Assembly: GCA_016790165.1 (NCBI GenBank)
Contig: JAEUPL010000026.1
Location: 33,325-97,324, forward strand
Reading direction: 5' to 3'
DNA length: 64,000 nucleotides
DNA from: Burkholderiales bacterium
GTDB lineage: Bacteria > Pseudomonadota > Gammaproteobacteria > Burkholderiales > Casimicrobiaceae
Positions 31,197 through 60,497 of this stretch are shown piece after piece. Numbering within the stretch: position 1 is the first letter of the stretch; each line of letters begins with the position of its first letter. The position numbers and the translations under genes were made by a program. The notes beneath the pieces are model-generated. The model worked only from the letters and a program-made list of their open reading frames with translations. It was not told the origin of the DNA and ran no database searches.

Positions 31197-33557
31197 ATGA
31201 ATAAGCTGAGTCGAATTGTCACAAACTTGGTCGCCGGAATATGGATGTTGGTCTGTCTTGGCGCGGCGTATGCGGCGTCGGGGTTCCTCGGGTCGAACCA
31301 ACCGTGTACCCTTTCCGGGAGCGCAACCACATGCTCTGTCACGCTCAGCTACACGTTCGATGGAACTCCAAAGGCGTGCATTTGGCTCGCCGGTGGTGCC
31401 ACAGTGGTGACTTGTTCTGGTGCCGGGTCTGGTAACTCGTTTGTTTGGGACTGGGCAAATACATCGGGTACCGCCTTTGAACTCCGTGGCCACTCAGATT
31501 GGCCGACGAATGATCCGCCTGGCTACCAGAGCGGCACCCTGTTAGCCACACACACCGCCTACGCGATCGCACCGCAACCTGCAGCAAGCGGTTCGCTGAG
31601 CGTCCCTGCAAGTTGTCAGTTGCCTGGCCCATACGCTTCTGACCGTTGCAGCGTCACCGTGAATTATTCCTTCACGAACTCCCCGGTCGCTTGCGTTTGG
31701 CTCTCGGGCGGTTCGCTGTTCTCGTGTTCTGGTTCCGGCGTAGGATCCCAGACGTTTGACTGGGTGACTACTTCGAATACGACATTCGAGCTACGCGCGC
31801 ACTCGACATGGCCAGCAAACAACTACGCAGTGTATTCAGCGGCCCCTTTGCTCGCTACAAGCAGCGTGCATGCTCAAGCTCCGGTGGCCCAAATCAAGAG
31901 TTCGCAATTTGTTTCGCAAAGCGTTTCTGCCTCGATGGCGGCAGGACAGTCTTACCCAGTGTCATTGACGTTTTCGAACAACGGAACAAGCACTTGGTCT
32001 GCGTCTACTGGCTACAAGCTTGGTGCACAAAACCCGCAAGACAATATGACCTGGGGCACAAACCGAGTCGTACTTCCGAGCGACGTAGCACCTGGACAGC
32101 AAGTCACGATCTCATTCAGCGTTACGGCGCCAGCAGTTGCTGGCACTTACAATTTTCAGTGGCAACTCATTCAGGAAGGTGTTCAGTGGTTTGGCGCGAC
32201 ATCTACGAACACATCGGTCGTTGTGACAACGGCCGGCACTAACAGCAGCGGCAGCAATTTGATTTCCAACGGTGGCTTTGAAACACCGGTAACAGGGAAC
32301 TACCTCTACAACCCTTCCATCCCGGGCTGGAGTGCTTCCGGAGGTGTAGCGGTGCAACGCAACGGGAGTGACTGGGGTGCTACGACGGCCCCCGAGGGAG
32401 TGCAGACGGCCGTCCTGCAAAACCTTGGCATGCTCTCCACGTCAGTCACCTTGAGCTCAGCGCAACACACGCTCAAATTCAAAGCGGCCGCACGCACCAG
32501 CTGGGGCGGTTTGCAAACCGTCGTTGTCAAGGCCAACGGTTCTCAACTGCTCTCAATCACGCCGCTAGGCGCCGCTTTTGGGCAGTATCAGGCGACCTTT
32601 ACCGCAATCAATGGTGCAAACAACATTTCTTTTGAAGGTACCAACGACAGCGGCGACAACACCGCCTTCATTGACGATGTACAGCTTACATCCAATGCGC
32701 CTGCTGGCTCGAACGATCTCGCGACGTTGCAGTTTTCCGGCGAATCGCATTACGACTACGCGTTGCACTTCAGCAAGTTCGCGGGGTTGGTGGGTAACTC
32801 GTACTACGCGGGGAATCCGAACGGAACTGCATTTGCGTCGAAGCCGGCGGCGGACGGAATACATAGTGAAATTTTCTGGATTCGGTCAACACCACCCTCC
32901 ACGGGAAATTCTCAAGGGATTGACCCAATTCAAAACTGGACTAACGCTGGCATTAGTTATAACGGAGAGGAGTTCGGAAAAGCATTCAATTGCGCAGGAG
33001 GATTACCCTTCTTGTGGCAGTACGCGTTCAATCAATACGACGTCGATCCAATTACGAAGGCAGTGACTAGCTATCGTTATCCATTTAAGGCCGACAAAGT
33101 ATTGTTGGAATTCTCGGGGAAGTCTGTTGACATCACAGCCGGAGGAGCGTGCGGCGCATCTGGAATTCCCTACGCGTTGGCAAACGTCCCAACTGTTCCA
33201 TATACCCTCAAGGTTTGGGCGACGTACCAATTCGGCGGCAAGTTCTATTGGCAGGTACGCTTCGATCCGCCGACAGCCATAACTAATTCCTGTTGGTCTG
33301 GCGCTGGTAACAATACGAGTCCAGCGATCAAACAGAGCGAAGCTTGGTGGGACGGAACGCAGCAAAGCAATGGCGTTTGGAACGGAAATTGGGTGCTTGG
33401 CTCGGGGACGAATGGACCAGATGGATTGCCCACAGGCGCCAACGTCGCTTACGGGTCAACGGGTACGCTTGCAAAGAATAGAGGATGGTTATGGACAGGC
33501 TCTACCGCAGCCCACCCCGATTGGGTACCGTGCTTAAGGAGCACGTGGAGTTGGTAA
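31197..33557 (+). CDS. Large secreted protein with NBR1-type Ig domain and carbohydrate-binding-like domain
   Basis: 786 aa. Signal peptide (~1-27, GAAYA). Two homologous Cys-paired beta modules follow (TTCSVTLSYTFDGTPKACIWL and DRCSVTVNYSFTNSPVACVWL). Next is an NBR1-like Ig domain (~235-335, VSLTFSNNGTSTW, APAVAGTYNFQWQL), then a jelly-roll domain (~350-490, SNGGFETPVTGNYL ... FIDDVQL) of the DUF642/carbohydrate-binding type. A unique C-terminal ~290-residue domain, Trp/Tyr-rich, is unassigned. AGGAAG lies just upstream of the ATG. Likely an adhesin or polymer-acting exoprotein. Confidence 0.8.
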   Translation: MNKLSRIVTNLVAGIWMLVCLGAAYAASGFLGSNQPCTLSGSATTCSVTLSYTFDGTPKACIWLAGGATVVTCSGAGSGNSFVWDWANTSGTAFELRGHSDWPTNDPPGYQSGTLLATHTAYAIAPQPAASGSLSVPASCQLPGPYASDRCSVTVNYSFTNSPVACVWLSGGSLFSCSGSGVGSQTFDWVTTSNTTFELRAHSTWPANNYAVYSAAPLLATSSVHAQAPVAQIKSSQFVSQSVSASMAAGQSYPVSLTFSNNGTSTWSASTGYKLGAQNPQDNMTWGTNRVVLPSDVAPGQQVTISFSVTAPAVAGTYNFQWQLIQEGVQWFGATSTNTSVVVTTAGTNSSGSNLISNGGFETPVTGNYLYNPSIPGWSASGGVAVQRNGSDWGATTAPEGVQTAVLQNLGMLSTSVTLSSAQHTLKFKAAARTSWGGLQTVVVKANGSQLLSITPLGAAFGQYQATFTAINGANNISFEGTNDSGDNTAFIDDVQLTSNAPAGSNDLATLQFSGESHYDYALHFSKFAGLVGNSYYAGNPNGTAFASKPAADGIHSEIFWIRSTPPSTGNSQGIDPIQNWTNAGISYNGEEFGKAFNCAGGLPFLWQYAFNQYDVDPITKAVTSYRYPFKADKVLLEFSGKSVDITAGGACGASGIPYALANVPTVPYTLKVWATYQFGGKFYWQVRFDPPTAITNSCWSGAGNNTSPAIKQSEAWWDGTQQSNGVWNGNWVLGSGTNGPDGLPTGANVAYGSTGTLAKNRGWLWTGSTAAHPDWVPCLRSTWSW

Positions 33558-34354
33558 GGCGAGCCTTTTTCTCGAAGTCCTCGGTTGATTGTCGGCCGGG
33601 GACACTCGCCTACGTTTGCAACGTATGTGGCGCGTCAAATCAATTGGACGCGACGTCGTTTCAGCGTGAGGGTAGCGCTTGCGGCGTCTGTGGCGCCGTG
33701 ATGCGTTTTCGTTCGCTCATGTGTGTGTTGGTCGAGAGATTGTTTGGAGCACCGCTACCTCTCACGGCGCTCAGTCCTCAGAAGCAGTTGTGCGGCATCG
33801 GGATGAGTGATGCACCGGCCTATGCACGCCGTCTGGAGGAGCTTTTTGACTATACCAATACTTTTTTTCACACTCATCCACGCCTCGACATTACTTCCAT
33901 CGACAATTCGTCGCTGGAGCGCTATGACTTTGTGATCACATCGGACGTGTTCGAGCATGTGGCGCCGCCCGTTCAATGCGCCTTCGATAACTTGTTTCGG
34001 ATATTGAAACCCGGCGGCTGGGCAGTGTTTTCCGTTCCGTTCTCTCTCGACGATGAGACGAAGGAACACTACCCTCAGTTGCATGACTTCACAGTCAGTC
34101 AAGGACCGGATGGGCGTTGGCGTCTCTCAAACGTCACTGCCGATGGCCGCCATCAAGATTACGAGAATCTGGTGTTTCATGGAGGTCCGGGCTCGACGCT
34201 AGAGATGCGCCTGTTTAGTTTGTCGGCGCTTCAACGACACTTCTTGCGCGCAGGATTCGAAGACTTCCATGTTCATGGTGAGTCCCGCTTCGCATTCGGT
34301 ATACATTGGTCGGAGCCTTGGAGCATCACGATTTCGGCGCGGCGCCCCCTGTAG
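33491..34354 (+). CDS. SAM-dependent methyltransferase with N-terminal zinc ribbon
   Basis: 287 aa from the ATG at 33491 (GAGG 6 bases upstream), overlapping the secreted protein's 3' end by 67 bases in another frame. The N-terminus has two Cys pairs (CNVCGASNQL and CGVCGAVMRFRS). The class I methyltransferase core follows: LCGIGMSDAPAYA, YDFVITSDVFEHV (motif II, Methyltransf_11 style), LFRILKPGGWAVFSVPF. Such proteins often sit in polysaccharide or glycan loci. Target unknown. The long overlap with the preceding gene means the start may lie further in. Confidence 0.78.
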   Translation: MDRLYRSPPRLGTVLKEHVELVRRAFFSKSSVDCRPGTLAYVCNVCGASNQLDATSFQREGSACGVCGAVMRFRSLMCVLVERLFGAPLPLTALSPQKQLCGIGMSDAPAYARRLEELFDYTNTFFHTHPRLDITSIDNSSLERYDFVITSDVFEHVAPPVQCAFDNLFRILKPGGWAVFSVPFSLDDETKEHYPQLHDFTVSQGPDGRWRLSNVTADGRHQDYENLVFHGGPGSTLEMRLFSLSALQRHFLRAGFEDFHVHGESRFAFGIHWSEPWSITISARRPL

Positions 34355-43515: not shown

Positions 43516-46491
43516 CTACCTCACCAACGACTTCGCAATCACCTCCGCGATCACTTCCCGCTTCCCCGCCAGTTCCCGACTGGATACATTCGGGCGATTG
43601 ATCTTCACCCGGTAACCGCGCACGACAGATTCATTCGCAGTCTGTTCGAATGCGTCAAGCGCAAGTACTACCTGTTCAGGTGAGATGTATTCCAGTGCCT
43701 TGCCTGGCGCGGTTTGGTTGATCGCCGCCTTGACCTTTTCCCTTCGCTTCCCATCGGCACACACAAAATACACGTGGCTAAACGAAGCCCGCAAACACTT
43801 CTCGACATTTCCGATTTCATAGTCTGCGGTGTTGGTGACGGAAATCTCGAAGGCCAATGACAGTTCTTTGCGTTCGAGCACGATGTCCACCCGACCATCC
43901 TCCACCGGGTATTCAATGGTTGCTTTGAATCCCCTGTCTTCCCCAAGGCGCTTAATCAGTTGCTGCACATAGCGATGTTCACGACCGCCTTTACCGGCAT
44001 CCTGGGCTGGAGGGGTGTAGGTCAGGACGCGGCCATCGTCGCGAATTGGCGGCGGTACAGGTGCAACAACCGGTACGGCCGCGAGAACCTCAGTCTGCAA
44101 AGGTTCGGCAGCGACGCTTTCAACCATTGGCTGCACCACTTCAACCGGCGACGCATAGTTGGCTCTTGAAAGCGCCTGCAAATCTTGAAGCGGCAGCGAA
44201 TCCGCCTGTGCGGTGCATCGAATCGTCCCGAGCGAAAAGTCTTTCCCTGATTCACCAAAGCGCCCAACAGCTTCACCTCGATCCAGATTCAGCAAATCCC
44301 CTTGAGAAAAGTGGGCAAACCCGCCAGCAAGCTCTTTGGCATCGTTCTCTCCCACCCGGAACACAATGCGGGTAAAGGCACTACCGAGTAGCGCTTCCTT
44401 GAACTCCGGCACCCCGCTTAGCTGCGACAAGTGCTGATGCGCCAGCACCGCTCCGAGTGCGTATTTGCGGGAGCCTGTAAGGAGCGAGGTTAAGGACGGT
44501 GTGACGAAATGATGCGCTTCATCGACGTAGAGGAAGAATGGAGTTCGCTGCTCGCGGTCGATTGCCTGCCTTGCCATCGCCGCTTGCTGTAGTTTGGCGA
44601 TCAGTAGGCTGCCAAGCAGATAACTGTTCTGCCCACCCAAGAGGCCATGAGAGAGCTTCGCCAGCAGTATCTTGCCTTCAGCCAACGCCCGTGCGGGGTT
44701 ATGCCGGGTGCGCCGTACCGCCACAATATTTCGTATCGACCGGGGACGCAAGAAGCTATCTAGGCGCGACAGAATGGGGCCAACGGAGCGCGATCCAATC
44801 GCCCCATATTGCTTCTGCCAGAAAAATTGCACTTCCGGATCACTGAGCTTGGCGACATAGGACTTCCGAAAATCGTCATCCACCAGGAGGCGCCGGATGT
44901 CCAGGAGTGTCCCGCCACCCGGATGCTCGAGTGTCGCCAGCACCGCGTTGGCGAGCACGGTTGTCATGGTGTCGCCCCAACTCGTCGAAAGCCGCTGGAA
45001 AATGCCGGTGATGTCATCCACCAAGGCCATCTTCTCCAGTTCGGTGGAGGCCTCCAGTAGCCCGAGGCCGATGGGGTGATCGATGTCGGACGGATCGAAG
45101 TAAACAACATCCTTGGCGCGGGAGCGCGGAAGCGACCGAGCAATGTCATCGACCAGATCACCCGATGGGTCGAGCACGGCGATACCTCGGCCTGCCAGAA
45201 TGTCCTGCATGGCAAGCGCATGCATCAGCGTCGACTTCCCGACTCCAGTAGCGCCAATGATGTGGGTGTGTGACAAGCGGTCAGTGAGGCTCACCGTCAC
45301 GGGGGCGAGTCGTCCAGTGTGCCTGGTATTGCCAAGTCTCGTGTCACCTACTGCGACGTGTGGCAGCACGCGTGTGCGTTTGCTGTCACGCACCAGCGCT
45401 TCCGACTGAATGATGGCATCGGGCAAATGGACGAGCGCGGCCAGCTCGTCCAGGGACAGAATCATCCCGGAACGAAAAGACTGGCGATTCAGGAAGCTGG
45501 CGATGTGTTCATCATCGGGATAGTCGTCGTTTTCCAGCGGAATCAACTCGTTTGCGCCGGGCCGCTCCAGGGACTTGATGAACGGCATCACCGCGCGCCC
45601 CAGTTCCCGCAGTCGCGGCCGTTCGCGGCTGGCAAGTCCGAGACGCAGGGTCGCTGCAATTAGAGGAGCTCGCGTCTTTTCTTTGGCAAGACTGGCAACG
45701 TAGGGTGCATCGGCATACAGGCAATCCGACTCGGTTTCGCCCACCACCTCACGCACCGTATTCGCCCAGGCATTGCGTGCCCGCTGAAACGTCACTTGCA
45801 AACACGTCACTTCCCCGCGCCCAGCGCAGGCGAGCCCCGGTATCAGCGGCAGAAAACTGTCGCGACTGTGATCGGTAGCCAGCGGAAGAAAGAACTCCTC
45901 CGAAAGTCCGAAGTCAATAACTATCTGCTCATTGGTTTCAGCCCAACTGCTTGCGAGGGCGTCCTCACTTGCTGAAACGACGGCGTCCGGGGCGAAGCTT
46001 TCTATCAAGCGGCGAGTCGCTTCCGCGTCCTCGCTGGCCACTGAAATCTGAATCCGTACCTTCCCGTCGTGGCCGATCAACTCAAAGCTGACCGGATTCA
46101 TCGAGGCGCCAAGCGCAAGGAGGAGTGGCCCGGTCAAATCGTCACTTTGTTTGAAGTCACTGGGGACAGTGACGGAAAAGTGGACAAGGCTGGAAGCGGC
46201 AATGGCCTCACGCGGGAGCGGCTCGACATAGGGCTCGGGGGTAGCGGGTGGGTTGTATGTCAGTGCCTTGATCGGTGCTCGCGCAAAGGAAATGATGGTG
46301 CTGGCTATCGTGGCACGTTTACCTTCGTCGATCACGACGCCATCGGCGACCGCGCCGGGCAAAAGAAAAAAAGGGCGAAAGGGCGGTTCCAATTCGACCG
46401 GATAGTCGGCCAGTTGCCAGCCCCTGCCGCGTATCTCCCAGGCGGCAAAGCTCGCGGCAAGTCGCTCGCCGGGGCTTTGATAGGAAGTCAC
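43516..46491 (-). CDS. VirD4/HerA-like DNA-translocase ATPase with C-terminal nuclease-like domain
   Basis: 991 aa from GTG 46491, overlapping the preceding frame by GTGA. An N-terminal ~390-residue domain of unknown type is followed by a P-loop ATPase: Walker A GATGVGKS (413-420), VLDPSGDLVDD, and Walker B FLYVDEAHHF with GSRKYALGAVLAHQHLSQL after it, as in type IV coupling proteins. The C-terminal ~170 residues (EDGRVDIVLERKELSLAFEI, then NVEKCL) resemble a PD-(D/E)xK restriction-fold domain. No membrane helix is seen. Possibly DNA transfer or defence; no relaxase is nearby. Confidence 0.78.
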   Translation of the reverse strand: MTSYQSPGERLAASFAAWEIRGRGWQLADYPVELEPPFRPFFLLPGAVADGVVIDEGKRATIASTIISFARAPIKALTYNPPATPEPYVEPLPREAIAASSLVHFSVTVPSDFKQSDDLTGPLLLALGASMNPVSFELIGHDGKVRIQISVASEDAEATRRLIESFAPDAVVSASEDALASSWAETNEQIVIDFGLSEEFFLPLATDHSRDSFLPLIPGLACAGRGEVTCLQVTFQRARNAWANTVREVVGETESDCLYADAPYVASLAKEKTRAPLIAATLRLGLASRERPRLRELGRAVMPFIKSLERPGANELIPLENDDYPDDEHIASFLNRQSFRSGMILSLDELAALVHLPDAIIQSEALVRDSKRTRVLPHVAVGDTRLGNTRHTGRLAPVTVSLTDRLSHTHIIGATGVGKSTLMHALAMQDILAGRGIAVLDPSGDLVDDIARSLPRSRAKDVVYFDPSDIDHPIGLGLLEASTELEKMALVDDITGIFQRLSTSWGDTMTTVLANAVLATLEHPGGGTLLDIRRLLVDDDFRKSYVAKLSDPEVQFFWQKQYGAIGSRSVGPILSRLDSFLRPRSIRNIVAVRRTRHNPARALAEGKILLAKLSHGLLGGQNSYLLGSLLIAKLQQAAMARQAIDREQRTPFFLYVDEAHHFVTPSLTSLLTGSRKYALGAVLAHQHLSQLSGVPEFKEALLGSAFTRIVFRVGENDAKELAGGFAHFSQGDLLNLDRGEAVGRFGESGKDFSLGTIRCTAQADSLPLQDLQALSRANYASPVEVVQPMVESVAAEPLQTEVLAAVPVVAPVPPPIRDDGRVLTYTPPAQDAGKGGREHRYVQQLIKRLGEDRGFKATIEYPVEDGRVDIVLERKELSLAFEISVTNTADYEIGNVEKCLRASFSHVYFVCADGKRREKVKAAINQTAPGKALEYISPEQVVLALDAFEQTANESVVRGYRVKINRPNVSSRELAGKREVIAEVIAKSLVR

Positions 46492-47013: not shown

Positions 47014-48204
47014 TTAGCTCACGGGTCTATTGTTCTCATTCTGATTTGTTTCTGCAACGGGAAGCGTCTTGAAGCTGAAAACCGGCGTCACCTCCCCGTT
47101 GACCAGCAATTGCGCATAGGCATTGCGGGCTGGCAGGTTCAAAAGGTCTTGCGGCGTGATGGGTGAACCGAAGCGAGCGGCGAAGTATTTGGCGTCCTCC
47201 AGGCCCGAGCGGAATGTGATGACACTACCTACCGTACCGAGAATAGTTTCTCTCACGTCCCTACCAAACTGGGTAGTGACTTGATGGGCAAGACAGAGGC
47301 CTACGCCGTACTTGCGCAGCTCGGTCACCATCTCGGCGATGGTCGCGGTGGTGAGGAGGTGGGCTTCGTCCAAATACACCATCACGGTCTTGCGTTGGTT
47401 TTCTGCAACATCGGCGCGGCTGAGCGCGGCCATGGTGACAGCCGTCAGCATCAAGGAGCCAATCAGGGACGAGGAATCAACGCCAAGTCTGCCTTTGGCG
47501 AGATTGATAACGGTCACGCGCTGTTCGTCCATCAGTTTGCGGAAGCGCAGCACATTCCACTTGCGCGTAAGCAGTTGCTGCAAGCGTGGGTCGCACAAGA
47601 TAGCGGAAATCTTGGTCTGTATCGGCAACGACATTTCTGCACGCATTCGAGGATGTATTGACGGGAATTCGTAGCGCCAGTAGCGCTTCACTTCCTCGTT
47701 CTCGATGCGATCAATAACCTCGCGACGATAGTCTGTGTCGTAGAGGATTCGGGTTACGTCTGAAAGTACCCCATCGCCCGCTTCTACGATGGCATAGAGC
47801 GCGGCGCGCAGCGTTCCTTCCATACGCGTGCCCCAGGCATCAGCGAACAAATTGCGCAGTGAATCGATGAGCCCCGAGACCACCAGCGGGATGAAATCGC
47901 GTTTGACACCGCGAACTGGATTGAAACCAACATCGCAGGCGGGATCGGCGATGTCGATGTATCGAAAGGCCGTCATCGTTTCGTAGCGACGATTGAGACG
48001 AGACGCTAGATCGCCGTGAGGGTCGAGCACGATGACACCAAGGCCGCGGGCGATGTCGTCCTGAATCATCATCTCCATGAGGGAGGTTTTGCCGGAACCA
48101 GTAGCGCCGACGATGTATGTGTGTGACAGGCGGTCGGCGTCATACATGCCGAAGACCTGCTGTCTGCGGCCGGTGGTTTCTCCAAGTCTGGTGTGTTGCT
48201 GCAT
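47014..48204 (-). CDS. Compact VirD4/HerA-like ATPase
   Basis: 396 aa with Walker A GATGSGKT (33-40), VIVLDPHGDLASRL, and Walker B VMVYLDEAHLL; then CLAHQVTTQFGRDV and RSGLEDAKYFAARFG as in type IV coupling/DUF87 proteins. It lacks N-terminal membrane anchors and is about the ATPase core only. It is the first gene of a leftward set (this ATPase, the interrupted small membrane protein, the 991-aa ATPase) with short gaps. The pair of unequal ATPases suggests a two-component DNA motor. Confidence 0.82.
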   Translation of the reverse strand: MQQHTRLGETTGRRQQVFGMYDADRLSHTYIVGATGSGKTSLMEMMIQDDIARGLGVIVLDPHGDLASRLNRRYETMTAFRYIDIADPACDVGFNPVRGVKRDFIPLVVSGLIDSLRNLFADAWGTRMEGTLRAALYAIVEAGDGVLSDVTRILYDTDYRREVIDRIENEEVKRYWRYEFPSIHPRMRAEMSLPIQTKISAILCDPRLQQLLTRKWNVLRFRKLMDEQRVTVINLAKGRLGVDSSSLIGSLMLTAVTMAALSRADVAENQRKTVMVYLDEAHLLTTATIAEMVTELRKYGVGLCLAHQVTTQFGRDVRETILGTVGSVITFRSGLEDAKYFAARFGSPITPQDLLNLPARNAYAQLLVNGEVTPVFSFKTLPVAETNQNENNRPVS

Positions 48205-49200: not shown

Positions 49201-49258
49201 ATTTGTCGGCTCCGCGCGGGGTGGCAGACGCATGGCTCCCCACGCGGAGCCGACAAAT
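49201..49258. repeat. 58-bp inverted repeat with 16-bp perfect arms
   Basis: ATTTGTCGGCTCCGCG and CGCGGAGCCGACAAAT are exact reverse complements, and pairing continues inward through GGGG/CCCC. It lies between the SOS-type promoter and the ATG at 49292, so it would be in the leader transcript. Followed by TTGTGATCGG rather than a T-run, it may be a leader structure, an operator, or a mobile-element feature. Confidence 0.6.
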
Positions 49259-49595: not shown

Positions 49596-49627
49596 GATGC
49601 CTGCTTCTTAGAAGCGGGCATTTCTTA
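49596..49627 (+). terminator. Rho-independent terminator
   Basis: ATGCC-T-GCTTCT and AGAAGC-G-GGCAT form an 11-pair stem with one mismatch, followed by TTTCTT, a few bases after the stop of the 99-aa gene. Confidence 0.75.
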
Positions 49628-49641
49628 TGCCGGCGCTACTC

Positions 49642-49738
49642 GTCCACTGAAACAGAAGAATTGCACCGGATGCTGCGGGAAGCACATGAGGGCGTCCATC
49701 CGTCACGCATGGGGTGCGATCTCATTGTTTCGGTGGAC
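49642..49738. repeat. 97-bp imperfect inverted repeat, MITE-like
   Basis: GTCCACTGAAACA at the left and TGTTTCGGTGGAC at the right pair over 13 bases with one mismatch. The pairing resumes inside (TTGCACCGGATGC against GCATGGGGTGCGA). No gene lies within. It looks like a non-autonomous element or a folded RNA/DNA structure. I could not define a target duplication. Confidence 0.5.
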
Positions 49739-49781
49739 TAGTTCATGACGTCAAATCACGTGCATCAATACGGCTACGCTC

Positions 49782-50801
49782 CTAACGGCTCGCGATGAGC
49801 CCCCCAGAAGAAATCACCAACTTGGGTCGGGCATGTAGAAAACTTGCTGTCACGTGACGTAGACGCGCCAGGCCATGAGATACGTTTGTAGATCTAAGTG
49901 ACGCCCTACAAAATTGCAACGACTGTTCTGCCCCACTCCATTCAGTGCGAGCGATGTAAGCGCGTGCCAAGTTCAGGTCCAAGAACGACTTTCCGCGTGT
50001 GTCGCCCGTTTCAAGAAATAGCGATTGGCCAACAGCAATGGCCTCTTCCGCAGAATCGAGGCGCCCCATCCTGAGATACACATCAGACTCAGCTTTGACC
50101 GCATACGCAAGTGACTGCTTAGCACCACATTGAGAAAAAATGACTTTGGCCTCGCGAATCCTCGTTAGTCCCGCGTTGTGAAAGCCAAGTAGCGAACTGG
50201 TATCGCCTAGGCCACGGAGCGCATAGCCAAGACCGCGAATATCGCTTGCATCCGATGCCAAACGGGCCGAATGCGCGAACAACCGGCGCGCTAGACGAAT
50301 GTCGCCACAGTTTCTGGCAATTTGCGCGAGCCCTTGCATAGCCCAGACTACGGCGCGCACATCGCGCATTGACTGAGCTTCTGAAAGCAATCTTGCGTGA
50401 TAGACGCGAGCGAATTCGAAAGCACCTAGCACCCGATAGGTCTCAGCCTCGCCGGCCCGCGCATAGAAGTGCAGCACCCTATCACCGGAGAGTTTCGCAA
50501 ACCTCGTTGCGGCACGATAGTCAACAATCGCACCACTAAGGTTGCCGGTCTGTCGCCCTAAGTTTCCTTTGGACCAGCACAACCAACCTACATCAAGGAA
50601 GCTGCTCGCTTCGGTCATCGCTTCTCGCAGCAGTTCGCCCGCTGAAGTTGAGTTGCCAGTACGGCGAAATAACTCAGCGTGCCTCAACTTCGATGTTGCG
50701 TTGGACGGATACGTCGCTGACTGCGCGAGATGTAGGGCCCGCACATAATCCTGCTCGGCAGTTTCCGCATCCGCTCCGAATTCCGGAGAAAATGCCTTCA
50801 T
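49782..50801 (-). CDS. TPR-repeat protein
   Basis: 339 aa from the ATG at 50801, which overlaps the upstream stop as ATGA. It is all helical, with about eight TPR-like units (for example GNLGRQTGNLSGAIVDYRAA, GEAETYRVLGAFEFARVYHA, LRGLGDTSSLLGFHNAGLTR, AESDVYLRMGRLDSAEEAI). No catalytic domain. It is co-translated with the nitrilase-TPR protein, so the two probably form a complex or share a pathway. Confidence 0.85.
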   Translation of the reverse strand: MKAFSPEFGADAETAEQDYVRALHLAQSATYPSNATSKLRHAELFRRTGNSTSAGELLREAMTEASSFLDVGWLCWSKGNLGRQTGNLSGAIVDYRAATRFAKLSGDRVLHFYARAGEAETYRVLGAFEFARVYHARLLSEAQSMRDVRAVVWAMQGLAQIARNCGDIRLARRLFAHSARLASDASDIRGLGYALRGLGDTSSLLGFHNAGLTRIREAKVIFSQCGAKQSLAYAVKAESDVYLRMGRLDSAEEAIAVGQSLFLETGDTRGKSFLDLNLARAYIARTEWSGAEQSLQFCRASLRSTNVSHGLARLRHVTASFLHARPKLVISSGGLIASR

Positions 50802-53086
50802 CCCCATAGTTGAAAATTTGGCACAAGGAGCACTTGCTGCCAACGAGTCAATGTGTATGCGCTAATCACTTCTTCCAGTTCTTGGGCCAGCGCGCGCATC
50901 CTCCAGAAATCACTGTCCTTTCCGACTGTGATAAACGGGTCTACTACCTTCGCGAAATCGGAAGCGTCAGTTTGTCCGGTTTCCCACATCTGGCATGAAT
51001 GTCTCATCAAATAGCACAAATCACGAGCGATTGTGTCTGCGGAGGCAGCGTGGCGCATTGAGATCTGGTCGTCCAACAGATTCGCACAATCCAGAACATC
51101 CGCGATATGTTTCTCACCTTGCATATAAGCGAGAATCATCAGCCTAAGTTTCGAAAATGCGTGGTAGAAACCAATGTATGGACTTGAAGGACGCGAAATT
51201 TGTTTTTTCCAGTGGCGCCAATAGCTTACTAACGTTGCGTTCGCGTCTGTTCTGTGGGGCTCTGTAGTCCGAAAGTACCATTCAATCTCGCCAAGACATC
51301 GCAACGCATTTTCTGCCAGGTTGTTGTTGCCTATGTTAATCGCCACATTTAGCACGGCGGTCGACAAATCACGAGCCCTCTCGAAATCACCTCGAGTGCG
51401 CAGCCAGTTTGCATGAATTTGCCTAGAGAACGCGCCTTCGACCACCATTCCACGCTCTTGGCAACCATCGCAAAGCGCAAGGAAGTCGTCTTCTCGTATT
51501 TCTTCCGGCGAGTAGAGGGCTGTACATTGCAGTTGATGTCTACGCAAATTCAATTCCTGCCGATCCAAATCGCTGAGTACCTCTTTGTCACTAGCGGTTG
51601 GAGGTCCTTTTGACAAGATGCTGGACCTCAGCCCATTTGCTCGGATTGCTAACGCTCTCAACTGACCAGAATGTGTAGATAAATGCCCCATCTGCAAATA
51701 CTCTCTGCAATGTTGCATCCGAAACAAAGTCTTGAGCAAACTGATGGCGGTGCGGGGATCTGATGAGTTTTCGCGCCGCCCGTCTCGTTCTATCCCATCT
51801 TGCCGCAATTTCTTATAGAGCTGGCCAAATACTTTATAGGCTTCGTCATATTTTCCGGATCGTTCAAGCAGTATTCCAAGTTCTCGCAATAGCTCCCGGT
51901 TTTCGTCTGACGTTACCGGTCGAGCCAATCGCGTGCGCAGGATATTTTCGGCAGCGACGAACTCCCCCATCGTGCGCAGCCCCTGTGCATAGCTCAGCGG
52001 GCGGGCTGGCGACACCAACTTGATTGACGGGACCGGTTCTATCGCGTAGGCCGTGTCGCGGCTGTTGTCCCAAAAATCTACCAAGGCACTATCCCGTCCG
52101 CCATCGGAACTCGACCGACTTCTAAGGTATGCGTGGGCAACACACTCAAGCACGCCACTACCAGAGTTGATATCTAGTTGGGCGAAGAACAATCCGGGGC
52201 GCCAAGGAAATTCGATACCTCGAGTTTCGGCACCCAAGCCTTTCATTTTGTCTGTCAAAGGGAACATGGAACGCGAGTGGCTGAGTATTCGACCGCCAAC
52301 AGAGTGACGCGTCACGCCACGATAGACAACATTCGTTTGCAATACTCCAATGCAACTGCTTCCGTCACGACAAGAAAAGGCATCATCTAGGCGAGCAACT
52401 ACAACGTCATCGTCAGGTGATCTGGAGAACTGAGGGTTTATTACGAGCGACTTCGGCTGATGTTGCTGAAGAAGGTCAAATGCACTTTGCGTAGCGCCTG
52501 AAAGCGGTAGAAAGACATCGCTGCAAGTCAGTATCGCAAAGGTCAAAGCGTCGTACCGAAAGACTTTCAGTTTTGCCTGCCGTATCGGTAGGGAGCCAAA
52601 CAACTTTTCAACCAACTCCCGTTCCTCTCTGGCGCTTGTCAGTTTCGGTTGCCAGTAGAGATAAACGCCAGTATCTTCCTTCGGCCATTCCGGGCGTTTG
52701 CTGCGTACGAATCCAACAAGACACTCATTCGAAAATGAAGTTTGTTGGCGTTCAATCGCGATGCCAACGATGACGAGCAGATCAAAATGGCAATCGACCC
52801 GCAAATCGTGCAGCCGGCTACGTAGCTCATCTTCGACCGCCTCTCTGCTTCGAGCTCGCATCGTGAGCTCCGGGAAGACCACCAGAATCAATGCGCCACG
52901 AAGTGCCGATGTTGTCGCGTGCTCAATGGCGCTAGCGATAACACACGTGACTTCGTCAATGGTAAAGTTGCCGCTGATGTCTGACGGCTTTACTTCTATC
53001 GCCGCCCCATACGCTGCAACAAGAGTCCTAGATCTACCGGTGGTAGGACGTAGATCAACTTTGTCGATCAATTCGAGATCAAACAT
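50798..53086 (-). CDS. Nitrilase-fold domain fused to TPR-like helical repeats
   Basis: 762 aa from ATG 53086 (AAGG 6 bases upstream; a GTG seven codons further out is possible). The N-terminal ~280 residues show a carbon-nitrogen hydrolase domain with a complete triad: E73 in VVFPELTMR, K148 in YWQPKLTSA, C188 in AILTCSDVF. The remainder is helical with TPR-like units (TMGEFVAAENILRTRLA, LGILLERSGKYDEAYKVFGQ, TRGDFERARDLSTAVLNVA). Amide- or nitrile-bond chemistry is likely; the substrate is unknown. It is divergent from the prenyltransferase-like gene across a 144-base spacer. Confidence 0.78.
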   Translation of the reverse strand: MFDLELIDKVDLRPTTGRSRTLVAAYGAAIEVKPSDISGNFTIDEVTCVIASAIEHATTSALRGALILVVFPELTMRARSREAVEDELRSRLHDLRVDCHFDLLVIVGIAIERQQTSFSNECLVGFVRSKRPEWPKEDTGVYLYWQPKLTSAREERELVEKLFGSLPIRQAKLKVFRYDALTFAILTCSDVFLPLSGATQSAFDLLQQHQPKSLVINPQFSRSPDDDVVVARLDDAFSCRDGSSCIGVLQTNVVYRGVTRHSVGGRILSHSRSMFPLTDKMKGLGAETRGIEFPWRPGLFFAQLDINSGSGVLECVAHAYLRSRSSSDGGRDSALVDFWDNSRDTAYAIEPVPSIKLVSPARPLSYAQGLRTMGEFVAAENILRTRLARPVTSDENRELLRELGILLERSGKYDEAYKVFGQLYKKLRQDGIERDGRRENSSDPRTAISLLKTLFRMQHCREYLQMGHLSTHSGQLRALAIRANGLRSSILSKGPPTASDKEVLSDLDRQELNLRRHQLQCTALYSPEEIREDDFLALCDGCQERGMVVEGAFSRQIHANWLRTRGDFERARDLSTAVLNVAINIGNNNLAENALRCLGEIEWYFRTTEPHRTDANATLVSYWRHWKKQISRPSSPYIGFYHAFSKLRLMILAYMQGEKHIADVLDCANLLDDQISMRHAASADTIARDLCYLMRHSCQMWETGQTDASDFAKVVDPFITVGKDSDFWRMRALAQELEEVISAYTLTRWQQVLLVPNFQLWG

Positions 53087-53230
53087 TTGAGCCTTCGCTT
53101 CCAGCACTCGCGTTCATAGGTGCAGCAAGGATATTTTGACGTTCGCCTCGCCGCAAGGAGCAAGGAACGGACGTTGAAGCGGCGCGGGCTTGAGGGTATA
53201 ACCGTTACCTCCCGATTATGCAGCTAGGGT

Positions 53231-53899
53231 ATGCCTTTGCCGTTGTCTATAGCGATTATCCCGGACGGTGCACGTCGGTGGGCGCGCCTCAGTGGCGTGC
53301 CACTCCGGCACTCCTACGACCTCACATTTAGCAAGCTGTTGGAGATACTGTTGACCTTGAAGTCAGCAGATGTATCAGAAGCGCACGTTTACTTGCTTAG
53401 TACGTTCAACCTAAGCCGCTCGGACGACGACCTGTTGCCCTGCATTGCGTCCGAAATAGCCTTTCTCCGTCAACTGTGTCTTCGCGGAATGCTCGCAGGA
53501 GTACACGGTAACCTCAGCGTTGTGGCCGACAGACTTGACCTCGGGGCAGATTATCAGTCCATCGCCGAACAAGCAACTCATAGCGCGGGCGAACTAGCAG
53601 TTCACACATATGTAGGTTACTCATTTGAGTGGGAATTGACGACGAAGCTTGAAAGACTGTATAGAAAGCACGGTCTATCAGACGTTACCTCGATAGTCCA
53701 ATCACTTGCTCGCGACAAGATAGACTTTCTGTTTAGAAGTGGTGGATCAGATACGCTGAGCGACTTCTTGCCAATTCAGTTGCGATACGCCAGTCTTTTT
53801 TTTACCCCCAGACTGTTTAACGAGCTCAATGGCGCTGACGTCTGCAACGCCGTCGAGGCATTCAAGCGAAGTCGTCCGGAGCGTCGTTACGGTAGGTAG
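53231..53899 (+). CDS. Divergent cis-prenyltransferase (UppS-like) protein
   Basis: 222 aa aligning over its length with undecaprenyl diphosphate synthase: IAIIPDGARRWAR (family IMDGNGRWA; the essential Asp is D12), YLLSTFNLSRS (family FSxENWxR), LFRSGGSDTLSDFLPIQLRYA (family RIGGExRxSNFLLWQxAYAEL), and a final ERRYG (RRFG). Compared with E. coli UppS the pyrophosphate/metal residues E198, R200 and E213 correspond to S173, T175 and S188. So either chemistry or metal use is changed, or the protein only binds isoprenoids. It is not the housekeeping enzyme. Confidence 0.8.
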   Translation: MPLPLSIAIIPDGARRWARLSGVPLRHSYDLTFSKLLEILLTLKSADVSEAHVYLLSTFNLSRSDDDLLPCIASEIAFLRQLCLRGMLAGVHGNLSVVADRLDLGADYQSIAEQATHSAGELAVHTYVGYSFEWELTTKLERLYRKHGLSDVTSIVQSLARDKIDFLFRSGGSDTLSDFLPIQLRYASLFFTPRLFNELNGADVCNAVEAFKRSRPERRYGR

Positions 53900-54449
53900 C
53901 CGTGGCGTACGTGGCGTATTCTGAAATTGGGTCAAGTTGCTGATCGTCACCGGTACAGCACCACCTGCGATGTGCATACGTGAATTCTCGCAGCAGTTGC
54001 CCGTGTCTCATCATGCCAGCGGAATGATTCCCATCGCGTACTCATTTGGCTGAACTATGTGATTTGTCTCCCATAGGGAGACCGCGTTCGGCATCAGGTT
54101 TTCCCGATTACATCAGCAAAGCAGAATTGATTTTTCCAGGCGGCGTTGTACTTGCCGTCACGTCTCCGCTTTTCATCGTGATTCCTGTGGGTTCACAACA
54201 TCGCTTGGTAAGTCTGCCTGGTGGGTGTGGCGCTATCTCCAATCAATGACGACCAGTGTTTAGGGGAGCAGCGATTTCCAGTAACGACGAAAAGCCGTTT
54301 GATTGCCGACAAGATCGGGGTATAGCAACTCAGACCATATCAGCGCCGGTTAAGCTGCTCGTTGGCAGTCCGAGCCGATGTAGAGTGGCAGACCGCGTCA
54401 GGTGATTGATCCCCATCGTCATGCAAATTGGACACCATCCCTGCTATCG

Positions 54450-54667
54450 CGTCACAAACGAATACGCCACCACTATTCCATGTTGTCAATTTCATTGTTC
54501 CCCGCAGCACCGCCACCACCAGCTTATTCGTCACTGGCCTTACATAGTCCCCGACTTTCTCCTGTACTCGATCAGTCACATCACTCACCGCTAGGGCCTT
54601 CGTACCTTGTTCCGGCAGATAAAAGCACGCCTGTCTAGTCACCGCGTCAAGCGACAGTGAGGCCGCC
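54450..54667 (-). pseudogene. Remnant of a primase-type ATPase C-terminus
   Basis: The translated frame (LDAVTRQACFYLPEQGTKAL, RPVTNKLVVAVLRG, TTWNSGGVFV) matches the last ~70 residues of the intact ATPase at 59271-60497 (LEAVTRRSYLELSGQGTKPV, RPVTNKLVGAVLRS, ETWKSGGKYWV). Upstream of about 54667 the match stops, and the 3' end runs into unrelated sequence to a stop at 54340. The rest of the gap 53900-54709 holds no gene I can support. Confidence 0.75.
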
Positions 54668-58002: not shown

Positions 58003-58431
58003 CTACTTCCCTCGTGATGCGGCGCCGGGCGCACGTCTCGTGTGTGCCTGAACTACCGTCCCATTGGCCCGCTGATAGCTTCGCACATAAACCCGCTTAT
58101 CGCCTGTACCTGCGGTCGCCCAAGGTGCAATGTCATCCAAGTCTTCACGTTCATCGAGGACGGCGGATGCAGACTTCTTTACGGAGCCAGAAAATGTTTC
58201 TCCAATCGACGTACATGATGCGGAATCTGGTGCAACAATCATGTAGCCGTCAGCATACTTTGCGCGAATGGCGCTGCCATAATGCTGCGACAAATCTACC
58301 GGCGGCACAGTTGAGCGATACACCATAGCGTCACCTGTGCCATATACGGTGTAGCAAGCGGCCGGAGATTCGCTAGGTATCAGAAACGAAGATAACGCGA
58401 TGACAGCAGCAGTGATTGAACTGCGGGTCAT
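58003..58431 (-). CDS. Small exported protein
   Basis: 142 aa with a signal peptide (SSITAAVIALSSFLIPSESPA). The mature part carries two cysteines (AACYTVYGTG, SASCTSIGE) and a beta-type segment (AMVYRSTVPPVDLS), ending in a basic tail. No family recognised. Its ATG overlaps the stop of the HNH-type frame by 4 bases, so it was translated with it. Confidence 0.68.
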   Translation of the reverse strand: MTRSSITAAVIALSSFLIPSESPAACYTVYGTGDAMVYRSTVPPVDLSQHYGSAIRAKYADGYMIVAPDSASCTSIGETFSGSVKKSASAVLDEREDLDDIAPWATAGTGDKRVYVRSYQRANGTVVQAHTRRAPGAASRGK

Positions 58432-59120
58432 GCGTTCTTGCCTTTTGTGCCATGTTCTTCGAACGAATGGAACAGCTTGTGCCCAGCGACTTTCCTGTTT
58501 CGCCCGAGGCGGGTGTTATTGATACGTCCCTGCAAGTAGGTCGCTAACTCTGAAAAACGCTCCACTGGCACGAAGTCCCACTTACAACCAAATTCTTCTC
58601 GAATTCTGGCGTGTATGGCCATGTATTTGTACCTATCTGTTTTGCTAGTGTCTGCCTTCTGACACTCTTGATACCGGTTAATAAGGTACTCAACGTAGCT
58701 ACGCATTGTGAGGTTGTGCGCGACGCTGCCTTCCGTTGGCCCCACCATCACCTGGCTCCCCTTCGATTTCACGTTGACCACGCTTACCTGAACAGCGCCG
58801 GGACTATTGATGGCGACTTGGCCTGAGTTGCCCTCTACGTGGATCTTCGAGTAGTTCTTAAGCAGCCGATCCGCTATTTTCGCGGTTTGCGGAGTAATTT
58901 CGACGAGGCCTCGAAGCGTGTGCCGTTGCTTGAACGATTCGACCATAGCCACCGTGTATTTCGCATGCTCCGCGTCGATTATGGTGTGATGCCTCGGGCA
59001 CATCAAGACTAGATTCGCATACCCATGACGCTCTTGTTCAGATCGTGTTCCGTCCCATCGAGGCCCGAGCTTTTTCGCGGCGCGAATATCGCAAATCTCT
59101 CCAGTCAGAGTACCGCTGTC
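58428..59120 (-). pseudogene. HNH endonuclease-like gene, 5' truncated
   Basis: The frame upstream of the first ATG (59006) carries the first half of a common HNH module: GEICDIRAAKKLGPRWDGTR, then HGYANLVLMCPRHHTIID. The first half lies before any start codon, directly after an in-frame TAA at 59121-59123, so the N-terminus is missing. The 192-aa remainder after the ATG has a ligand-poor module and a unique C-terminal ~170 residues. Probably inactive as a nuclease. Confidence 0.6.
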
Positions 59121-59270: not shown

Positions 59271-60497
59271 CTATTGACGCGCTACCCAATATTTCCCACC
59301 TGACTTCCACGTCTCCAACCCGAGCGAAGACCTCAACACCGCCCCCACCAGCTTATTCGTCACCGGACGCCCATAGTCGGCAATCCGGTCACGCACTTTG
59401 TCGGCAACGTCCCCCACCGCCACGGGTTTCGTCCCTTGTCCCGACAGTTCAAGGTAAGACCGTCTAGTGACAGCCTCAAGCGAAGCATGACGCATCGCCT
59501 GCAAGCGATCATCGGACTGCGCGGCGAAGCGCAGTATTGCAGCCCTAGCTTCTCCGGACTCAGTAACGCTCAACAGCGGCATCACCATCTGATTGAACCT
59601 GCCCGAGCGTGTACTGACCTCAGTCGTCGTATCGATTTTTGCGTGGTGCAAGTTGCGAATACGAAAACACAGCAGCTTGTTACGGAGTGCCAGCGCTTCT
59701 GCCTCCTGTCCTTTCGGCAGACTGATCGGGACATGGGGACTTGGGGACGTTGTACCCATAACCTCAGTAAGAAAGCGGGATTCAAGGCCGTCGTCGGTGA
59801 AGCGTTTTCGCATCGCGAGTATCTTCGGGCCATAGACACGAAAGGCGCGAGGCTCGAAGTCGCCCTTTTTGCTTTGGACCGATTGTCGCAAGACGGATAG
59901 CGATTTGCCATTGCCGTTGTTGAGTACCTTCACGAACTCATTCGATGCGTCACTCCATCGAAGATCGGCTTCATCGAGTAGCAGTGTCGGTGCGAACTGA
60001 TCCAACGCATAGAAGATCGGTGAAATCGTCGATGCTGCACTGGCGAGGAATGGTTTGTTGGTTATGCCACCGATGACTTTGAGTGCCCTAGTCTTGCCCG
60101 ATCCGAGATCACCGAGGAAGCGGATGTACGGGACTTCCTCGAACACGTCGAAAAGCCAGGTCAGAAGGACGTAGCTGACTGCAGTTATTAGGGCGTCAGG
60201 GCTCAGGGTGACGTAGCGAGCGATGTAGCTGGTGAGGTCATTTCGTAGCTCGTTGATTGAACCGTACTCCGCTGGTTCACTCGGGAGCCGTATCGCGCCA
60301 TGACTGATTAGATTATTTGAATAAGGAATAGGTCGAACACACTCCCCGTTGTCGTGAAGGTATTCCGGCAGGAGTTGCCAGGCGCCGTCCTTGGAGACAC
60401 ACAGCGTCGTCTGATTGCCTTGTGCAACCAACTCAACGATGGTGCCGTCGTCAAAGACTCGGCTGGCAATCTGTGTTCCTTTCTTTTCCTCCTGCAT
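59271..60497 (-). CDS. Primase/helicase-type P-loop ATPase of a mobile element
   Basis: 408 aa. Walker A FLGDLGSGKTRALKV, Walker B TLLLDEADLRW, and a downstream segment KILAMRKRFTDDGLESRFLT resemble the ATPase of DUF927/DUF3631-type replication proteins. The C-terminal ~90 residues form a winged-helix-like region (DVADKVRDRIADYGRPVTNKL). A second, broken copy of that region lies at 54450-54667. It is divergent from a small gene and the serine recombinase, a repeated arrangement in proteobacterial integrative elements. Probably supports element replication. Confidence 0.78.
   Translation of the reverse strand: MQEEKKGTQIASRVFDDGTIVELVAQGNQTTLCVSKDGAWQLLPEYLHDNGECVRPIPYSNNLISHGAIRLPSEPAEYGSINELRNDLTSYIARYVTLSPDALITAVSYVLLTWLFDVFEEVPYIRFLGDLGSGKTRALKVIGGITNKPFLASAASTISPIFYALDQFAPTLLLDEADLRWSDASNEFVKVLNNGNGKSLSVLRQSVQSKKGDFEPRAFRVYGPKILAMRKRFTDDGLESRFLTEVMGTTSPSPHVPISLPKGQEAEALALRNKLLCFRIRNLHHAKIDTTTEVSTRSGRFNQMVMPLLSVTESGEARAAILRFAAQSDDRLQAMRHASLEAVTRRSYLELSGQGTKPVAVGDVADKVRDRIADYGRPVTNKLVGAVLRSSLGLETWKSGGKYWVARQ
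59728..59755. repeat. Repeat copy within the ATPase gene, matches 62398-62424
   Basis: GACATGGGGACTTGGGGACGT lies inside the coding region (protein TTSPSPHVP). The reverse complement, with one mismatch, occurs right after the recombinase at 62398-62424. Both contain a doubled TGGGGAC unit. Possibly a recombinase-related site, possibly chance low-complexity similarity. Confidence 0.4.

Follow-up and report, generated by a model that had tools for sequence, protein, structure and literature searches.

The described systems closest to the locus considered here are the class 3 defense-associated reverse transcriptases (DRTs), which join a reverse transcriptase (RT) to a nitrilase-type domain, and unusual members of the cis-prenyltransferase (cis-PT) family. 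The DRT1 nitrilase is activated by oligomer assembly and is needed for abortive infection, with the substitution C1116A abolishing immunity (PMC13275509), and the anti-phage systems reported for P4 satellites include a UG5 RT-nitrilase (PMC9122126). Among cis-PTs, Mcl22 and cyclolavandulyl diphosphate (cyclolavandulyl-PP) synthase are described as head-to-middle enzymes and NgBR and Nus1 as non-catalytic subunits (PMC7839719), and at least one family member is able to use acceptors other than isopentenyl diphosphate (IPP) (PMC8131916). Here we describe a locus of a Burkholderiales bacterium in which a gene for a nitrilase domain followed by tetratricopeptide repeat (TPR)-like repeats is coupled to a gene for a second TPR protein and faces a cis-PT gene. 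The locus lies in a window of 64,000 nucleotides, by which we mean the whole stretch of DNA analyzed. This window (G000:C2:33325-97324) forms the end of a contig of 97 kb, in an assembly of 3.76 Mb and 41 contigs that is 92% complete. The trio appears to be a new combination of known parts, and its joint function, considered here by sequence comparison, is unproven. With a probability of roughly 0.3, we read it as cargo of a mobile island, made up of an operon for a nitrilase effector under TPR control and a neighbor that binds prenyl diphosphates.

The three genes look real. The nitrilase-TPR protein (762 aa, 50798..53086, minus strand) lies in an open reading frame (ORF) at 50798-53107(-) that gives 769 aa from a GTG at 53107 or 762 aa from an ATG at 53086, the latter with AAGG directly upstream. 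The ORF of its TPR partner (49782-50843(-)) gives 353 aa from a TTG or 339 aa from an ATG at 50801 (49782..50801, minus strand), and this ATG overlaps the TGA of the upstream gene as ATGA. Across a divergent spacer of 144 nt (53087..53230), in which we found no sigma-70-type consensus match and no Rfam match at gathering scores, stands the cis-PT-fold protein (222 aa, 53231..53899, plus strand). Over positions 49601-54400, the longest stop-to-stop frame is 771 codons, compared to at most 234 among 300 mononucleotide shuffles. The ORF coordinates agree with the anatomy drawn in an earlier, sequence-only reading of this DNA, which knew of no described system with this combination; among the matches listed, no paper on it was found by title or abstract start, most subscription papers being outside the scope of that search.

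Membership of the longer protein in the nitrilase superfamily is likely. E73, K148, E154 and C188 (762-aa numbering) align with the active-site residues of six DRT-type nitrilase domains and one ordinary nitrilase, and the E-K-C triad, or E-K-E-C tetrad, is present in the correct order. The triad positions proposed from sequence alone hold in this numbering, and we take the glutamate aligned with E154 to be the second glutamate of the nitrilase tetrad. The six DRT-type domains come from relatives' genomes, and their UG1 and UG5 labels are our own assignments from their match to the UG5 model. The sole family match of the nitrilase part is to the PADLOC model RT_UG5-nitrilase (E 1.2e-5), over residues 72-197 and in the nitrilase segment of the model. 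A five-sequence UG5 nitrilase hidden Markov model (HMM) scores the protein at 10.9 bits (E 0.018), compared to 3.1 bits for the best of 2000 shuffles. As to the repeats that had been proposed, Pfam returns solely TPR rows for this protein and one of them (TPR_14) lies just above its cut-off, but the matches are weak. A single-sequence AlphaFold model, whose mean pLDDT (predicted local distance difference test) of 41 is too low for a fold search, has a strand and helix order that would be compatible with the alpha-beta-beta-alpha fold and, at the same low confidence and as secondary structure only, appears helical or TPR-like beyond roughly residue 318 (769-aa numbering). PHROGs gave no match.

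Like the DRT class 3 RT-nitrilases (DRT1/UG1 and UG5), this is a large multi-domain protein whose nitrilase-type domain carries the aligned E, K, E and C, and its operon lies in a mobile island as UG5 members are reported from mobile elements (PMC9122126). Unlike them, it has no RT in or beside its gene, its nitrilase is N-terminal and followed by TPR-like repeats, and the sequence similarity is marginal. Among the DRT-type loci themselves, two (L085 and L086, in genomes G935 and G990) have UG5-type RT and nitrilase matches in two adjacent separate frames, unfused, and the G990 RT stretch contains an internal TAG.

Sequence comparison places the TPR partner in a real protein family. Two Streptomyces plasmids encode relatives, NZ_CP081497 (33.6% identity, E 3e-30) and NZ_CP108509 (32.6% identity, E 4e-27), and the N-terminal start K-A-F/L-S/A-P-E-F/Y is common to all three proteins. 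The partner also matches, more weakly (E 3e-8), the C-terminal part of a 795-aa protein on NZ_CP023408, and NZ_CP108735 carries a partial relative (111 residues) that was reached only via the NZ_CP108509 relative and has no direct match to the window protein. Against Pfam, the TPR rows of the partner are weak and none is above its cut-off. The partner matched 3 of 23 related genomes, own genome included, these being its own gene and two weak TPR matches (E 1e-4); it had no match in phages, and an alignment of the three TPR proteins had none in viral contigs. The two Streptomyces proteins thus resemble the partner in their 33-34% identity (in round figures) and N-terminal motif, but differ from the window in their next gene, with a nitrilase undetected. 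On NZ_CP081497 this neighbor codes for a lipase maturation factor and lies in convergent orientation; on NZ_CP108509 it is a polyprenyl synthetase gene (PF00348, E 1.2e-56), which begins within the end of the TPR gene at an ATGA overlap. The isoprenoid link suggested by the sequence-only reading gains slight support here, because one of the four TPR relatives is ATGA-coupled to a polyprenyl synthetase on a Streptomyces plasmid. The TPR/polyprenyl synthetase pair at L095:9016-11123, on a plasmid of Streptomyces sp. NBC_01237, is without annotation in the collection and may deserve a study of its own.

The divergent protein matches PF01255 at 82.5 bits, compared to a cut-off of 27, with residues 10-221 covering profile positions 1-219 of 219. 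Its best-scoring PDB sequences are the irregular enzymes Mcl22 (E 5e-17) and cyclolavandulyl-PP synthase (E 1.3e-13), but ordinary rows reach nearly the same score (57.3 vs 60.6 bits), and in NCBIfam the top rows, none of which passes its cut-off, belong to models of ordinary isoprenyl transferases. A 38-row tree groups it with the irregular enzymes at 98/94 support; this placement is unsure because its end branch is 8.3 changes per column long and its highest pairwise identity in the tree (28%) is to an ordinary row, L040. Near-full-length matches are at about 21-33% identity among the matches listed. The protein has matches in 5 of the 369 genomes of a class sample, own genome included (E 1e-13), 39 of 72,556 plasmid records (E 1e-5) and 12 of 50,697 phage records (E 0.01). 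Among those listed, three Streptomyces and one Rhizobium plasmid loci have biosynthetic or unrelated surroundings and were not accepted as orthologues. A second cis-PT in genome G437, whose C-terminal half fails to align and beside which the ORF list holds no recognized nitrilase or TPR neighbor, was left out of the residue counts, and the single hit of the motif PDGARRWA in viral contigs, on a phage contig with no cis-PT seen in its ORF list, was taken as chance.

At six conserved positions the cis-PT is altered. In its own numbering it retains D12, R16, N60, R63, R169, S177 and R218 and is altered at A14, Y29, L61, S173, T175 and S188. In Escherichia coli numbering, for which we assume both the residue numbers and the donor, acceptor and Mg roles of the positions, D26, R30, N74, R77, R194, S202 and the arginine of the C-terminal RRYG are kept. 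The reference consists of 32 rows that we labeled housekeeping-type, with L006 and L028 set aside. Compared to it, N28 has become A (N in 31/32, with one gap), W75 has become L (W in 31/32), H43 has become Y (H in 32/32), and E198, R200 and E213 have become S, T and S (E, R and E in 32/32). The tyrosine at H43 also occurs in 5/5 irregular enzymes and in L006 and L028, and is hence unspecific, while R200 and E213 are kept in 5/5 irregular enzymes. On this alignment the protein keeps several donor-site residues and loses acceptor and Mg positions, and the residues by which we would recognize an active chain-elongating enzyme (N28, E198, R200 and E213) are all replaced. To call it degenerate, as had been done, fits the acceptor side best, and H43 and W75 are altered in addition. 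Mcl22 and cyclolavandulyl-PP synthase resemble it in fold family, in size, in the replacement of N28 (M there, A here) and in an RRYG or RRFG end, but differ in keeping R200 and E213 and in gene neighborhood. NgBR and Nus1 are similar in lacking catalytic residues and keeping a C-terminal R-x-G-type end; unlike them, the window cis-PT has no catalytic cis-PT nearby and keeps several donor-site residues.

The surroundings of the trio are a mobile, mosaic island whose far end is beyond the window's contig. In 2-kb steps, GC content is 0.60-0.69 across the first 28 kb and 0.51-0.61 beyond, with 0.51-0.55 from 48 kb on, and we regard the lower-GC part as mobile and mosaic because it holds IS21 istA/istB-type genes, two TraD-like ATPases, RadC and a serine recombinase that resembles CcrA, although it scores below the cut-off of the CcrA model. 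The GC drop and these genes support the placing of the trio in a foreign island, as the sequence-only reading had it. The DNA at 49600-54400 has no nucleotide-level match among plasmids, and relatives of the TraD-type ATPases, compared to map the island, were of no help. Several other features of the island were recorded. The two TraD/terminase-like ATPases (43516-46491 and 47014-48204) are paralogous, at 33% identity, and both match phrog_5156 strongly (E 4e-53 and 9e-50). An inverted repeat at 49201-49258 (26-nt arms, 88% complementary, 6-nt gap) lies between RadC and a small ORF, behind an AT-rich TATATATATA stretch, and is possibly a recombination or replication site. Directly upstream of a Sel1-repeat gene, 153 nt at 54502-54654 are 71% identical to the 3' part of an ATPase-like gene at 59271-60497, perhaps a remnant of an earlier rearrangement.

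A PADLOC scan of 20 island proteins gave partial matches. The strongest are those of the two TraD-like ATPases to mad8 (E 3e-16 for 43516-46491 and 8e-18 for 47014-48204), which belongs to a defense system; these ATPases match HerA-type models too, and may instead be transfer ATPases. The similarity of a methyltransferase at 33485-34354 to mad2 is weak (E 1e-4), and further partial rows include mad3. A frame at 58428-59006, with in-frame stops upstream, weakly matches HNH/CBASS-type effectors (E ~1e-5).

We favor the effector reading because of the E-K-E-C alignment, the UG5 match, the precedents of DRT1 and P4 satellites, the mobile island, the mad8 matches, the coupling of the two TPR genes and the relative paired with a polyprenyl synthetase. 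The operon and the cis-PT would together be a cargo module of the island, in which the C-terminal helical repeats and the ATGA-coupled partner probably form a regulatory or target-recognition part that probably keeps the nitrilase inactive until a trigger arrives. On release, the nitrilase would cleave an essential molecule that carries an amide or an amine, as has been proposed for the DRT1 nitrilase. With its preserved donor side the cis-PT-fold protein may hold an allylic prenyl diphosphate, either signaling the condition of the envelope lipid pool to the TPR proteins or transferring the prenyl group to a non-standard acceptor. Nitrilase activity itself, like the gating, its trigger, the substrate and any contact of the cis-PT with the operon, is put forward here as part of this model. 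The role in conflict or defense that the sequence-only reading suggested is weakly supported as well, because the sole family match is to a UG5 DRT nitrilase and the DRT1 nitrilase is needed for abortive infection (PMC13275509).

A number of results weigh against the effector reading. Pfam gives no CN_hydrolase row for the nitrilase-TPR protein at E 0.1, and the PADLOC UG5 model, run over the whole genome of the organism at E 0.001, does not list it; PDLC03780 had no match in this genome at the same threshold. On the five-sequence UG5 HMM, an ordinary nitrilase scores 10.7 bits and a UG1-like domain 43.8, and because the window protein scores above shuffles yet equal to an ordinary nitrilase, its kinship with DRT nitrilases is not established. 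No RT or STAND-type NTPase was matched among the three proteins and the scanned neighbors, and no complete defense system among the 20 island proteins. In the flanks of the TPR relatives (20 kb for three, 9 kb for NZ_CP108735), tblastn at E 0.01 found a nitrilase or cis-PT in 0/4, and the polyprenyl synthetase of NZ_CP108509 had no tblastn match beside the other three of the four. The proposal that the three genes form one system is not supported; where the TPR partner could be traced, no nitrilase or cis-PT was detected in 4/4 places.

Nor did the nitrilase-TPR protein have a convincing relative in genome contigs, in overlapping samples of phylum (398), family (64), order (399) and class (203) genomes, or in plasmids (E 10), phages (E 1) and viral contigs, which likewise weighs against the effector reading, as no conserved association is seen. 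The one genome-contig locus matched is a 47-residue TPR-like stretch within an unrelated 1167-aa protein. The 3/398 phylum matches are the own genome and two short ones of about 20 bits (G157, among response-regulator genes, and G344), both rejected; the 3/399 order matches are the own genome and two short TPR-region matches, and the family and class samples gave 1/64 and 1/203. Plasmids, phages and viral contigs gave zero matches, and the motif WQPKL..REER was absent from the viral contigs scanned.

Two other explanations are close rivals of the effector-operon reading and about as likely. The better surviving of them, a serious contender although short of even odds, is that the nitrilase-TPR/TPR pair makes up one unit of two genes, with the divergent cis-PT as independent cargo that adjoins it by chance, either decaying or with a role of its own. 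This is compatible with an effector role for the operon, and the odds given to the two do not exclude each other. The adjacency of the trio was seen once only, members of its TPR family stand in the 4/4 other places with no detectable nitrilase or cis-PT nearby, six conserved cis-PT positions are altered, and the island is evidently mosaic, with its IS21 genes, recombinase and the 71% partial gene copy at 54502-54654. On the other hand, the two units stand head to head at a tight 144 nt, the cis-PT ORF is intact and similar in GC content (0.52 vs 0.51), and one of the TPR relatives forms a coupled pair with another prenyl diphosphate synthase; the cis-PT has also kept several donor-side residues and its C-terminal RRYG, and this speaks against its simple decay.

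A small-molecule pathway, which we consider possible if rather doubtful, would have the cis-PT make an irregular or non-IPP prenyl product and the nitrilase domain act as an amidase or acyl transferase for a prenylated amide. The irregular synthases are the best-scoring PDB sequences and group with the cis-PT at 98/94, the three examined Streptomyces plasmid relatives of irregular synthases lie in aromatic-prenyltransferase/polyketide clusters, and a polyprenyl synthetase is the coupled partner of one TPR relative. However, the window cis-PT lacks the R200 and E213 of irregular synthases, and its end branch of 8.3, its 28% identity to the ordinary L040, the 57.3 vs 60.6 bits and the ordinary NCBIfam rows all weaken that kinship, while no other biosynthetic, carrier or export gene was recognized within about 5 kb on either side. 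It is unlikely, as we see it, that the locus is a new conflict or defense system in the full sense, in which a cis-PT with a rebuilt acceptor site would make or read a prenyl-diphosphate signal of envelope disturbance, upon which the TPR pair would release an RT-free nitrilase effector. The ribosome recycling factor gene is a frequent neighbor of uppS. Although the island cis-PT is the sole PF01255 match in the assembly, we give almost no credence to its being the one functional undecaprenyl-PP synthase of the genome: it has lost key acceptor residues, and the lone match is likely due to an assembly gap because the ribosome recycling factor gene was likewise not found in this 92%-complete assembly.

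If the three genes are unrelated, the nitrilase-TPR protein would still stand as an architecture for which the collections searched contain no convincing relative. If the effector reading is true, an RT-free nitrilase with TPRs would separate the effector from the trigger, and the question of its substrate could become easier to test. The cis-PT, with several donor residues kept and the usual acceptor residues lost, would make a useful example of how an isoprenoid enzyme can be retooled.

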